From contig JAGFIY010000030.1 of NCBI GenBank assembly GCA_024103215.1, forward strand, positions 1-58,605: a DNA stretch of 58,605 nucleotides, in the 5' to 3' direction. The notes under the pieces were generated by a model. That model saw nothing but the letters and a program-made list of their open reading frames with translations, was not told the origin of the DNA and searched no databases. The stretch comes from Melioribacteraceae bacterium. GTDB taxonomy: Bacteria; Bacteroidota; Ignavibacteria; Ignavibacteriales; Melioribacteraceae. Position 1 is the stretch's first letter, and every line of letters starts with the position of its first letter. Positions 1-5,200 of the stretch are shown here, one piece after another. Position numbers and translations under genes: made by a program.

Positions 1-1
1 A

Positions 2-250
2 TTGACGATGTCAGTATCCGGGTTGCACACTGATTGCGTCGAACAGGTCGGCAGCGATGCCTACCTGCTCACTTACACCTACGGCACCGACCACCAGCGC
101 GCGAAAAGCGAGCTGAAAAGGAACGGGATCAGCATTGAAACGCGGATCTATTGCGGGGCTTATGAAGAGCAGCGCCTGCCCGGCACCACCAACAAGATCC
201 ATTATGTGAACGGCCCCGGCGGACTGAGTGCCATGCTCGTGCAGGCCTAA
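2..250 (+). pseudogene. RHS/YD-repeat protein fragment, truncated
   Basis: The 82 residues resemble the stretch just before the RHS-repeat-associated core: a YTYGTDHQR segment, a GAYEEQ segment and KIHYVNGPGGLSAMLVQ, matching the usual pattern 'FTYGPDxQR...YxGxYEE...xIHYxxGxxGLAAI'. In intact RHS proteins the chain continues into the core and a variable toxin or adhesin tip. Here a stop follows at once, so the right part is missing. The left part is cut by the window edge, so the true start is unknown. Base composition is clearly GC-rich with mostly G/C third positions, unlike the AT-rich DNA that begins at the stop codon. It could be a displaced RHS remnant, a recently acquired piece, or an assembly join. 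Family recognition is from motifs only. Confidence 0.6.
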
Positions 251-271
251 AAATATTTTTACTTATCTTAT

Positions 272-2518
272 TTAGTTGTCGTATTTGATGTAATCTGTCG
301 TTGTAATAAATTGTGCTGCCCAGTCAGCAAATATTCTGGTTTGAGATGTTGTAAGATTGTAGGTATATTCAGCTAAACTATTTACAGCGTCAGGGTCAGC
401 GAGGTTGTAGATTGCGCTCATCATTTCTTCATGTTTGGTATGTCTTTGTGCGTTTTCTGAGAAGCTTGCGAATCCGTAGTCTTGTTCTATTAGTCCGTTA
501 GTTGCTGTTCCAAAATTATTTCCGTGTCCAGGTGGTCCTGATTGACCGACATCAGTGTAGTAGAAGTCTTCGTTTCCTGGTATGGTCATGTATTGCCAGT
601 CTGGGTCACTTTGATCTACTGGTTCGGATATTCTGTATGGGTAATTTCCAAGGAGTGCTACTTTTATTAGTTCTTCTGTGTTTTCTTGTTGCACACTTGG
701 ACTTATGGGGTCGCCGGTTAGTGCTTCGAAGTGTGGTGATGAGTATATGAATTCTCCTCCGGGTATTTCGTCTGGGAACATTCTTATTATGTATCCTGTT
801 CCGTGGTTGTGTGTTAGTATTCTTTTTACTTCTGCGCTTTCTAGGTCTACTAAGTCGTTTGTGTCGTTGTTGTTTTGTAGTTGGCTTCTTATTCTGTATA
901 GCTTGATTATTCCTTGGTCTTCTAGATCTTGTAGGTTTGCGTTTACTGGCTGAAAATTATTGGAGGCATTTCTTTCCCATTTATACAAATTTAAGTCCAT
1001 TGAACTTGGGTTTTCTTTGGTTGCAAAAGCAATGTTCTGATAACCACTTTTAGGAACGGGAGTAATAGTAATATTAGGATTATCAGCTGTAATATCTACG
1101 TTGATAACATCTCCGTTGTATTCATGATCTTCGCCGTCGACGTTCAAAATGATGCCGGCTACTACGTCTTCTTCCAAGATGTTTCTATGATCAATAACAA
1201 AAACGTATTGTTCTCCAGTCACGATTTTTTCTAGTTCTAGGTCTGCCGTCATTCCGTTTTGGTTGAATGGTATTGTTGTGTTGTCTGGGTTGTATCCGGT
1301 CTTTGAGCCATTGACATTAAGATTGTTTGGTAGTATTATGCTTGGACTGTATGGGTATGAATCAAAATTCAATGTAATATTATAGTTTCCTTGGCTGTCC
1401 GTATTGTCGGAGCTGTTTTGTATGTGGTTTCCGTTTGCTGTCACATTCACTCCCTGTAAATTATTCTGAGAATCATCCTTAACATTACCAGAAAGATTCG
1501 CTTGCTCTTGTACAATTCTTTGTTCTAAAACTAATTCTCCAACATCCATATCTTCAGAAAAATCAACAGTCTTACTAGAACTTCCCAAATTATCACCAGT
1601 CAAAATAACACTAGCTTCATTAAATTCTATCAGTTCGTCATCCGGATTTTGTGGGTTTACGAAATAGTCATAAACTATCCCATCAACATCAAATGTTCCT
1701 CCACTCACACTCACATAACTGTAGGTATTTCCATCAAGTTTTATTTCAGCTTGCATCCCTTCCAAATCAATCTCCGGCGCGGGATTGCTTGTATAACTTC
1801 CTTGAATAGAAGCACTTTTTTGTCGTGCAATCTGTTCTAATTCAACATCAAAAGTCTGACTAACATTTTCTATTGCCTCTTCAGTAACCGCATATGTTCC
1901 ATCCAATGAAACAAATTTAATTGTGATCATTCCGTATGATGTTTTGTTAAAACTTCCACTCCCGCTGCTATACTCAACTCTTGCTGAATAACTGCTCCCA
2001 TCCAACTGTATCATCTTCTTTGTTTCAGTGAAGCTATTTGATGATATTCTGTAGAAGTATATGCCGGCTGCACCTAATCCGCTAACTTCAAATCTATGTG
2101 AACCAGATCCATAATAGCTGTTTGAATAAATGATTCTGCCTATTACATCGAATATCTCAAATCTAAACTCTTCTTTGTAGGCTGAGTAATACTCTATTAT
2201 TGTAGATGGATTGAATGGATTTGGGTAGTTTTGACTCAAGGAATAGCCCCCGGGATTATACGGTTCGTCATTGGCAACAGAAGTTAGAAGATTTTCAAAA
2301 CCCCACAAACCATCGGCATCGGTTGTGTCCTTTCCGTAGACAACATCCGGGTGGTCTTTATCGGAGATTTTTATTTCGATGTTTGGGATACCGGATCCCT
2401 CAAAACGTGAGTCGGAAGTCTTTCCGTTAATGTTTATTGTTTGTGCCCACGTATTTATAGGCTGAGAGGTTATTATAAAAAATATTAGGAAAGCAAGTAC
2501 CGGGCATTTTGATGTCAT
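272..2518 (-). CDS. Secreted multidomain protein with internal T9SS-like domain and carboxypeptidase-regulatory-like repeats
   Basis: A 748-residue protein with a signal peptide (about residues 1-26, ending TWAQ). A short CarboxypepD-reg-like segment follows (about 28-80). Residues 92-172 look like a T9SS type A sorting domain (NYPNPFNPSTII, FEIFDVIGR, GIYFYRI), but this lies near the N-terminus rather than at the end. Next come further Ig/carboxypeptidase-regulatory-like units (for example LSGNVKDDSQNNLQGVNV at roughly 345) and a C-terminal region of about 280 residues that I do not recognise. It is probably exported and surface or matrix associated. Codon use changes abruptly along the gene: T-ending codons dominate in 945-1215 and 1441 onward, while AAC/GAC/ATA/CTA-type codons dominate in about 545-945 and most of 1215-1440. 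The stop is 20 bp from the GC-rich RHS fragment. No function is claimed. Confidence 0.75.
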   Translation of the reverse strand: MTSKCPVLAFLIFFIITSQPINTWAQTININGKTSDSRFEGSGIPNIEIKISDKDHPDVVYGKDTTDADGLWGFENLLTSVANDEPYNPGGYSLSQNYPNPFNPSTIIEYYSAYKEEFRFEIFDVIGRIIYSNSYYGSGSHRFEVSGLGAAGIYFYRISSNSFTETKKMIQLDGSSYSARVEYSSGSGSFNKTSYGMITIKFVSLDGTYAVTEEAIENVSQTFDVELEQIARQKSASIQGSYTSNPAPEIDLEGMQAEIKLDGNTYSYVSVSGGTFDVDGIVYDYFVNPQNPDDELIEFNEASVILTGDNLGSSSKTVDFSEDMDVGELVLEQRIVQEQANLSGNVKDDSQNNLQGVNVTANGNHIQNSSDNTDSQGNYNITLNFDSYPYSPSIILPNNLNVNGSKTGYNPDNTTIPFNQNGMTADLELEKIVTGEQYVFVIDHRNILEEDVVAGIILNVDGEDHEYNGDVINVDITADNPNITITPVPKSGYQNIAFATKENPSSMDLNLYKWERNASNNFQPVNANLQDLEDQGIIKLYRIRSQLQNNNDTNDLVDLESAEVKRILTHNHGTGYIIRMFPDEIPGGEFIYSSPHFEALTGDPISPSVQQENTEELIKVALLGNYPYRISEPVDQSDPDWQYMTIPGNEDFYYTDVGQSGPPGHGNNFGTATNGLIEQDYGFASFSENAQRHTKHEEMMSAIYNLADPDAVNSLAEYTYNLTTSQTRIFADWAAQFITTTDYIKYDN
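2003..2245 (-). other. Internal T9SS type A sorting-like domain (residues about 92-172)
   Basis: This segment of the 748-residue protein contains the NYPNPFNPSTII opening, FEIFDVIGRII, and GLGAAGIYFYRI closing with KKMIQLD, the order seen in T9SS C-terminal sorting domains. In this protein about 575 more residues follow it. Known T9SS sorting domains act at the extreme C-terminus, so this copy may be only a structural beta-sandwich or a relic of a fusion. Confidence 0.6.
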
Positions 2519-2869
2519 AATCTACACCGTTTGTTATCTTATAAACTTTGTTAAATATAAACAGATAATAGAATAATTTCAGAATTTTATAGATTTTTCA
2601 ACAGAGCAGAGGGTAAGGTTATTAGCAATCAGCAAAGAATGATGAAGCAAGGTGTCAGAAGTCAGAGGGATAGAGGAATGAGCTTAAAATTTATATCCCC
2701 TTCTCTTATTTTGAGAAAGTGGATTTGGGGATAAACAAAGAGGTATAATGCGCTTGGTAATTTTCGATTTATTTTAAGTATAGATTTTAATTTTATGAGT
2801 TTACTTAATCCCAAAATCCATTTACATAAACTATTTTACGGAATCACTTATCAACTTTACAGAATAAAG
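2519..2869. other. Intergenic stretch without a gene (351 bp)
   Basis: This AT-rich region lies between the start of the secreted protein gene and the end of topA, both on the minus strand. No open frame with coding character was found. It holds one imperfect inverted repeat (2694-2733) and presumably the promoter for the 272-2518 gene near 2530-2600, where no clear consensus is visible. Confidence 0.6.
2694..2733. repeat. Imperfect inverted repeat / possible REP-like hairpin
   Basis: The outer arms TATCCCC (2694-2700) and GGGGATA (2727-2733) are perfectly complementary. Inside them TTCTC and GAGAA also pair across TTATTTT, leaving a bulge of about 9 nt on one side. Such hairpins are often dispersed short repeats in bacterial genomes, but only one copy is seen here. 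It could also contribute to termination after topA. Confidence 0.35.
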
Positions 2870-5200
2870 TTAAGATTTTTTAGACTTTCTCTTCCTTCCG
2901 GGAGTGTAATTTTTTTCAAGTTCTAAGCATTCTTCATATGTCAAACTCGAAGGCTCTCGATCTTTCGGGATTGGAATATTTTTTTTCCCCGCTTTAAGAA
3001 ACGCTCCCCACCTTCCGTTTTGAATCTGATAATTTTCATCCTCCTCAAAAACCTTGATTATCTTTTCAGCATCTTTTTTCATCTTTTCTTCAATCACATG
3101 AATTGCATCGTCAATCTGAATCGTATGAGGATCATAATCGTTTCCTAATGAATAAAACTTACCTTTGTATCTAAGATAAGGACCGAATCTTCCGATAGCT
3201 GCAACAACTTCTTCGCCGTCATAATCACCCACTGTTCTCGGAAGTTTGAACAGTTCCAGTGCTTCTTCAAGAGTGATCTGCTCAAGTTTTTGCCCGGATC
3301 TAAGTCCCGCATATTCAGGCTTAGCTTCAGGATCATCGAGATCCGTCAACTGTGCAACCGGACCGAATCGAGCCATTCTAACAGAAACTTGTTTTTTTGT
3401 TTTAGGATCTATTCCCAATATTCTTTCGCCCGACACTCTTTCACTTGTTTCTAGAGTGTGTTCAACTTGATCGTTGAAAGGATGATAAAATTCATCAAGC
3501 ATCGCATGCCAATCGAGTTTGCCTTCTGCAATATCGTCAAGTTCTTTCTCAACATGTGCTGTAAATTTATAATCCAGAATTTTCGGAAAATATTCGAGCA
3601 GGAAATCATTAACTAGCATTGCAATATCCGATGGATAGAGTTTCCCTTTTTCAGCGCCTGTTATTTCTTTTAATCTTTCCGAAACAATCTTTCCTTCCGG
3701 CGATAAAGAGAGAGAACCATACTCTCGTTCAACACCAGGTCTTTCCTCTTTAACAACATATCCCCTTTTCTGAATTGTGCTTATGGTCGGAGCATAAGTT
3801 GAAGGACGACCGATTCCTAGTTCTTCCAATTTTTTAACGAGACTTGCTTCTGTGTACCGCGGTGCGGGTCTGCTGAACCTTTCAACTGCATTAATCTTTT
3901 GGAAATTTAATTTTTCACCCTTATTAAGCGGGGGAAGAATTCCTTCGGATTCGCTGTCCCCGTTTTCGTCATCAGTAGATTCAAGATAAACATTCAAAAA
4001 TCCGTCAAATTTTATCACTTCACCTTTTGCAGTAAAATATTCATCCCTGTTTGAAAGAACTATCTTTACAGTTGTTCTTTCAATTTCAGCATCGCTCATC
4101 TGCGAAGCAATTGCACGCTTCCAAATAAGTTCATAAAGAGCTTGTTCGTCCGGGGTTCCGTTTATAGATTCTTTTTCGAAATAACTCGGTCTTATTGCTT
4201 CGTGTGCCTCCTGTGCGGATGAAGATTTAGTTTTATACTGTCTAGTGTGAGAATATTCCTTTCCGTTTCTTTTTATTATTTCATCCTTTGCAGCATTTAG
4301 GGCAAAGTCTGATAAATTCACCGAATCAGTTCTCATGTAAGTAATGTGTCCGGCTTCATATAAACTTTGAGCAACTCTCATTGTTCTTGCGACAGAAAAT
4401 CTTAATTTTCGCGATGCCTCTTGTTGGAGTGTGGAGGTTGTAAACGGTGCTGCCGGAGATTTCTTAACAGGTTTCTTTTCAAGTGAATCAATTATAAAAT
4501 CTGCATCTACACAACTATTTAAAAAATCCTCGGCTTCTTTTTGCGAATCAAATCTTTTGTTTAATTCAGCTTTAAAAATATTTTTCTTTCCGTTTGAATT
4601 GTTTCCAATGAATTCGGCGACAACTCTATATTTCGATTCGGGTTTGAAGCCATCAATCTCGCGTTCTCTTTCTACAATAAGTCTAACTGCAACCGATTGA
4701 ACTCTGCCAGCGCTCAAGGATGGTTTAACTTTTCTCCAAAGAACGGGTGATAGTTTAAAACCTACAAGCCTATCAAGAATTCGCCTTGCTTGCTGAGCTT
4801 CAACCAGGTTATAATCAATATTTCTCGGATTTTTAATCGCATTAAGAATTGCATTCTTTGTAATCTCGTGGAATATTATTCGTTTTATTTTATCATCTTT
4901 TAGTTTTAAAACTTCTTTCAAGTGCCAGGCAATTGCTTCCCCTTCACGGTCTTCGTCTGAAGCAAGCCAAACCACTTCAGCATCTTCGGCAAATTTTTTC
5001 AAATCTTTAACTACATTTTTTTTGTCTGCCGGGACTTTATACAACGGTTTAAAATTATTTTCTATTTCAACACCGTTGTTTTTCTTCTCAAGATCGCGAA
5101 CGTGACCGTAACTTGATTTAACAATAAATTCATCGCCAAGAAATTTTTCTATTGTTTTAGCTTTCGCAGGTGACTCAACTATAACCAAATTTTTAATCAT
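2870..5200 (-). CDS. topA: DNA topoisomerase I
   Basis: Type IA topoisomerase that relaxes negative supercoils through a 5'-phosphotyrosyl intermediate. The N-terminus has the Toprim opening LVIVESPAKAKTIEKFLG and the acidic DEDREGEA motif. The catalytic tyrosine sits in ITYMRTDS, near residue 290. The GRPSTYAPTISTIQKRGY segment is also canonical. The 776-residue length is normal. The C-terminus has no Cys4 zinc ribbons. Instead it carries repeats of the kind 'GRFGPYLRYKGK' and 'GRWGAFLKAGKK' and a lysine-rich tail, as in many Bacteroidota enzymes. The ATG at 5200 gives the expected N-terminus. It appears to be transcribed alone, with a terminator and a separate gene upstream. Confidence 0.97.
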   Translation of the reverse strand: MIKNLVIVESPAKAKTIEKFLGDEFIVKSSYGHVRDLEKKNNGVEIENNFKPLYKVPADKKNVVKDLKKFAEDAEVVWLASDEDREGEAIAWHLKEVLKLKDDKIKRIIFHEITKNAILNAIKNPRNIDYNLVEAQQARRILDRLVGFKLSPVLWRKVKPSLSAGRVQSVAVRLIVEREREIDGFKPESKYRVVAEFIGNNSNGKKNIFKAELNKRFDSQKEAEDFLNSCVDADFIIDSLEKKPVKKSPAAPFTTSTLQQEASRKLRFSVARTMRVAQSLYEAGHITYMRTDSVNLSDFALNAAKDEIIKRNGKEYSHTRQYKTKSSSAQEAHEAIRPSYFEKESINGTPDEQALYELIWKRAIASQMSDAEIERTTVKIVLSNRDEYFTAKGEVIKFDGFLNVYLESTDDENGDSESEGILPPLNKGEKLNFQKINAVERFSRPAPRYTEASLVKKLEELGIGRPSTYAPTISTIQKRGYVVKEERPGVEREYGSLSLSPEGKIVSERLKEITGAEKGKLYPSDIAMLVNDFLLEYFPKILDYKFTAHVEKELDDIAEGKLDWHAMLDEFYHPFNDQVEHTLETSERVSGERILGIDPKTKKQVSVRMARFGPVAQLTDLDDPEAKPEYAGLRSGQKLEQITLEEALELFKLPRTVGDYDGEEVVAAIGRFGPYLRYKGKFYSLGNDYDPHTIQIDDAIHVIEEKMKKDAEKIIKVFEEDENYQIQNGRWGAFLKAGKKNIPIPKDREPSSLTYEECLELEKNYTPGRKRKSKKS

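Follow-up and report, generated by a model that had tools for sequence, protein, structure and literature searches.

The gene at positions 272 to 2518 on the reverse strand of the window, that is, of the whole stretch of 58,605 nucleotides that was analysed, changes its codon usage abruptly within a single open reading frame, and this patchwork is real and extreme. The gene is best described as a mosaic surface gene whose segments are marked by a codon dialect, mosaic surface genes as such being already known. The features to which the following paragraphs refer are:

272 to 2518, reverse strand: gene of 748 codons for a predicted secreted cell-surface protein, in an uninterrupted frame that is retained over all patch borders
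2009 to 2227, reverse strand: type IX secretion type A sorting domain, amino acids 98-170 (TIGR04183 and PF18962)
1439 to 1663, reverse strand: patch in the opposite style, T-ending with C avoided (third-position C/T 3/37)
1355 to 1495, reverse strand: CarboxypepD_reg-like stretch, amino acids 342-388 (PF13620, E 1.3e-6)
1226 to 1438, reverse strand: first A/C-ending patch, from a two-state HMM (C/T 25/12, A/G 29/4)
1019 to 1120, reverse strand: T-ending islet (C/T 7/21)
557 to 949, reverse strand: main patch, A/C-ending in 119 of 128 informative codons
401 to 499, reverse strand: third A/C-ending patch (29 of 31 codons A/C-ending)
1 to 250, forward strand: fragment that forms the end of the contig, GC-rich (58%) and unique in the genome; an open frame in it ends at 250

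The patchwork had been proposed in a sequence-only reading of this DNA, which had the coordinates and the direction of the patches right. The fitted change points at 1441 (95% support 1435-1444) and 949 (943-949) lie where that reading put them, the T-ending style that it described at 1441-1650 was borne out by the patch at 1439-1663, and the T-ending islet that it saw at about 1345-1400 is real and lies between the two core runs of the first A/C-ending patch (1406-1438 and 1226-1303). It had the A/C-ending style persist to about 545. A change point was fitted at 556 (517-574), but a further A/C-ending patch follows at 401-499. The edges at 1441 and 949 are sharp to 1-3 codons, and the frame stays open through at least five patch borders. 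At 545-950, the third bases are A76 C44 G2 T10, where the codon usage of the genes around it would predict 41.8, 21.4, 17.2 and 51.4, and G-ending codons are down to 2% in the patch. All 57 informative codons of one 60-codon window within 557-949 end in A or C; in this window, 96% of the four-fold and Ile codons have A, and the two-fold pyrimidine codons all have C. In the A/C-ending patches, Ile is encoded by ATA 14 times and by ATC twice, where the genome prefers ATT, and CTA accounts for 11 of 15 Leu codons and TTA for one, where the genome prefers CTT and TTA. The Ser codons are more mixed (AGC 5, TCA 3, AGT 3, TCC 2), and codon positions 1 and 2 of the patch are near normal (+1.7 and +0.8 s.d.).

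When the 1108 open reading frames of 1.416 Mb (44% of the genome) were surveyed, the best 60-codon window of the focal gene had a z of 8.6, followed by 6.0 for gmd on contig C181 and 5.1 for a lipoprotein gene on contig C34; in the first 322 of these reading frames, the runner-up had reached 3.8. The mean-centred codon autocorrelation was 16.2 for the focal gene and 4.2 for the runner-up in the full survey. After 1000 rounds of synonymous shuffling within the gene, the maximum z was at most 6.55 (8.59 observed) and the standard deviation of the window z at most 1.51 (2.93 observed). An effect of the next base does not account for the pattern either, since after correction for this context the 119 A/C-ending codons still stood against 61.1 expected (z = 11.1). 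A whole-genome scan for runs of 25 A/C-ending codons gave 107 matches and, among the matches listed, on which this reading rests, those outside the focal gene and gmd were of low complexity; the same scan across the class was swamped by low-complexity sequence. Milder cases only, with a best z of 4.7, were found in 400 kb of another genome, G043. The suggestion that the style resembles that of some archaea was not supported: the 369 genes surveyed around fcl, from 80 other genomes that included archaeal ones, gave 20,018 windows, and the A/C-ending share was at most 0.85 in all of these, compared with 1.00 in the focal gene. The style had also been called unlike that of all other genes. This holds in that none of the 1108 open reading frames comes close, but a milder version occurs in a pair of lipoprotein genes elsewhere in the genome. 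A literature search found nothing on point.

The genome comprises 3.2 Mb in 186 contigs. Its fcl gene finds its nearest named relatives in Stygiobacter, Melioribacter and Ignavibacterium, by which the uncultured organism is placed, probably, in the class Ignavibacteria. The focal gene is at one end of contig C153, next to the fragment at 1-250, which, recognised by eye, is possibly a piece of an Rhs-like gene and had no Pfam match. The N-terminus of the protein consists of a signal-peptide-like start and then an Ig-like stretch. The sorting domain scored 41.3 bits with TIGR04183 (curated cut-off 23) and 37.1 bits with PF18962 (cut-off 27), and PF13620 scored 29.1 bits, slightly below its cut-off of 32.3. 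The codon border at 1441 falls inside the CarboxypepD_reg-like stretch at 1355-1495. The domain profile search recognised no domain in the C-terminal region, and structure prediction for the protein was unusable (pLDDT 31). The type IX sorting domain stands near the N-terminus, preceded by a signal peptide and a CarboxypepD_reg-like stretch and followed by the main domain of the protein. Several genomes of the class have this layout in front of an M19 dipeptidase domain, where Por_Secre_tail was called by Pfam in four of five cases and the motif was present in all five. Open frames on the opposite strand of the focal gene at 502-750 and 678-953 are in different frames from each other and were not taken as an overlapping antisense gene, because the T/G-rich composition of that strand would leave few stops.

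The sole paralogue of the focal gene, on contig C30, has the same architecture and aligns to amino acids 1-574 through both borders (BLAST E 4e-48, a value that owes much to the sorting domain). When amino acids 436-620 alone were compared with it in a pairwise test, the same register was recovered at a statistically weak E of 5e-4. The identity is about 30%, no DNA tract is common to the two genes, and the codons of the paralogue are ordinary throughout (window z -2.7 to 2.2). A collinear relative with ordinary codons indicates that the patches are re-spelled homologous sequence, and a foreign inserted domain could be ruled out because this relative is collinear across the borders and the border at 1441 cuts through a domain. 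For any segment after the sorting domain, this distant paralogue was the only clear relative. No donor, allele or clear relative for amino acids 221-748 was detected in relatives, class-wide genomes, phages, plasmids, or viral and genome contigs, nor in 2.8 Mb of sequence that was examined in addition, and no DNA copy was present elsewhere in the genome (best match 26 nt). In the sequence-only reading, matches of the patches to different taxa were to count as support. None came up in the searches, since outside the sorting domain the one paralogue is the only clear relative of the sequence.

A second gene with A/C-ending patches, the lipoprotein gene cut off by the end of contig C34, belongs to a family present in 68 of 116 relatives. 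In 36 homologues, the N-terminal module was more A/C-ending than the remainder of that gene (0.59 vs 0.50; p 6e-8 by Wilcoxon test, although the members are kin and such p-values overstate their independence), with T at the third position at 0.28 vs 0.39 and C in two-fold codons at 0.46 vs 0.29. The switch point lay on average about 30 codons beyond a shared motif in 32 members, and its place is constant in many genera. Within genomes, the module was 65-99% identical in 16 of 20 paralogue pairs and at least 70% (up to 99%) identical in 13 of the 20, where the next domain averaged about 50%. Between genomes, the module was about 31% and the following domain 38% identical, and none of 120 pairs reached 70%. 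Among identical residues of the paralogues, synonymous differences amounted to 18.6% in the module and 32.8% outside it, and the DNA identity of the C34/C19 pair in the focal genome ran in tracts of 90-98%, then 50-60%, then 90-100%. Since the module is mostly so similar within a genome and so diverged between genomes, the A/C-leaning segment of this family is copied between paralogues segment by segment, in the focal genome and in the class. The pattern of the module in Ignavibacteria has the form of concerted evolution or cassette-like copying. In the sequence-only reading, patch boundaries held in common throughout a clade were to count against recent mosaic assembly. The lipoprotein family shows such sharing, though less strongly, and its common switch point argues against a purely recent mosaic there.

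Because of the segment-wise copying in the lipoprotein family, our leading explanation for the focal gene is that it is a mosaic produced by segmental copying among diverged homologues of surface proteins, some of which carry the A/C dialect, an explanation that we prefer tentatively and to which we give somewhat less than an even chance. Segments of about 10-130 codons in the A/C-ending dialect would alternate with the ordinary T-ending dialect of the genome; they would most likely have been exchanged, by gene conversion or recombination, among surface-protein family members that have diverged, and the A/C-ending segments would derive from members bearing a hypothetical donor dialect. Segmental recombination, one of the causes suggested earlier, is therefore the best supported by analogy with the lipoprotein family, but a donor or a second allele was not found for the focal gene. 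We infer that the focal gene may have acquired its patches as the lipoprotein family did. The discrete segments with sharp breakpoints expected of a mosaic are present, the edges at 1441 and 949 being unlike a mutation gradient, and the replacement of homologous sequence, collinear with an unmixed relative, can be followed along the C30 paralogue over amino acids 1-574, weakly beyond amino acid 436. The A/C-leaning codons of fcl and gmd on contig C181 also speak for copying among surface genes. Against it, a comparably pure A/C style was absent from every other gene looked at, some tracts in the focal gene are just 5-10 codons long, and the lipoprotein module is milder, with no depletion of G-ending codons (13% vs 11%).

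The chief alternative, which we consider possible rather than probable, is that certain segments have long been under directional pressure. Here a strand-specific force acting in place would have been held for a long time on limited segments; it could be mutational, or it could be selection that keeps T and G scarce on the coding strand, for instance for unfolded mRNA. The lipoprotein module keeps both its lean and its switch point despite an identity of about 31% between genomes, and a lean that outlasts such divergence points to a lasting force rather than one import. Furthermore, the Leu codons of the focal patches avoid T at the synonymous first position too, and folding of the patch mRNA was predicted to be weaker than in synonymous controls made according to genome usage (z 3.7 and 3.2). 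However, synonymous shuffling within the patch left folding unchanged (-46.0 vs -47.3 +/- 4.1), so that folding adds nothing beyond composition and selection for weak mRNA folding as such was not seen. The nearly normal codon positions 1 and 2 and the sharp patch edges also count against directional pressure, as does the behaviour of secreted proteins, which as a class have no shift (mean residual 0.003), so that a general property of such proteins was rejected. Strand-specific mutation, which had been suggested at the outset, is disfavoured in its simple form of transitions (T to C, G to A) because ATT is replaced by ATA and not by ATC. It is very improbable that a strand-directional gene conversion, templated by RNA or by a single strand, spreads segments of surface genes within the class and writes A and C at synonymous positions, in which case the dialect would be a footprint of the copying itself.

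Ordinary horizontal transfer of the whole gene, or of its C-terminal half, from a donor with an A/C-ending genome and with partial adjustment since then, is unlikely. In its favour, the focal gene looks lineage-specific, and fcl and gmd on another contig lean to A/C wholly or in part, but some T-ending stretches exceed the T lean of the genome, which adjustment would not yield, the collinear C30 paralogue has ordinary codons, and no sampled genome has such a dialect. An artefact, be it misassembly at a contig end or non-natural sequence, is quite improbable. The position of the gene at a contig end beside the GC-rich fragment of 250 bases, and a patch core that is nearly deterministic, with A in four-fold boxes and C in two-fold ones, would fit it; against this, a chimeric join gives one border while the frame stays open through at least five, and a milder form of the A/C lean recurs in other genomes of the class. 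Back-translation with a single codon per amino acid was discarded as well, because the Ser codons, not being fully deterministic, do not fit it. Finally, it is hardly credible that the gene is the target of a diversity-generating retroelement or a similar retro-copying element, although the bias is strand-specific with respect to the direction of coding. Known diversity-generating retroelements change A to any base, whereas A is enriched in the focal patches. For the retro-type copying invoked earlier, neither a repeat resembling a template in 1-2700 (27 nt at 78% was all that turned up) nor a copy in the genome longer than 26 nt was found.

Odd codons or inserts were also observed at two other loci. 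On contig C181:1-5767, two surface-sugar genes, fcl and gmd, have codons that lean to A/C; additional sequence (VIARSVATWQSS...) is present within the frame of gmd, which is followed downstream by a partial second copy of gmd, with short open frames between. On contig C9:1-4329, a gene like UDP-GlcNAc 2-epimerase (2479-3735) has a repeated insert that keeps the frame (AEPGRSTV AEPGQSTV ...), and one of its windows is strongly T/G-ending (z -5.4).

Codon usage is normally seen as a property of a genome or of a gene, whereas in the focal gene it changes internally and abruptly, with a resolution of codons and an almost pure style. Across a whole bacterial class, the milder A/C form is found where segments are homogenised between paralogues. 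If this link holds, a codon dialect may flag shuffled segments and allow segmental copying to be mapped where alleles are not known, and the question of how the A/C bias arose would become a testable one about a strand-specific process.

Several known systems share part of this picture. As in the mosaic genes for surface antigens of Neisseria and streptococci and in Campylobacter alleles, sharp-edged segments alternate in a gene for a surface protein. However, the segments of those mosaics are known by their matches to different alleles, whereas the focal segments, for which no donor was found, are recognised by codon style alone and differ by synonymous choices. The lipoprotein module resembles paralogous surface genes under concerted evolution in being near-identical among the copies of one genome but diverged from one genome to another; the focal gene differs in that it has just one paralogue, which is about 30% identical to it and shares no DNA tract with it. 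With type A cargo of type IX secretion, the focal protein has in common a sorting domain above the cut-offs and a signal-like N-terminal stretch, but the domain is C-terminal in such cargo and lies at amino acids 98-170 of 748 here. In animal mitochondria, the third bases of the coding strand are mostly A or C, with T and G avoided, just as in the focal patches; there, however, the asymmetry spans the whole strand, whereas in the focal gene it is switched on and off within one gene.
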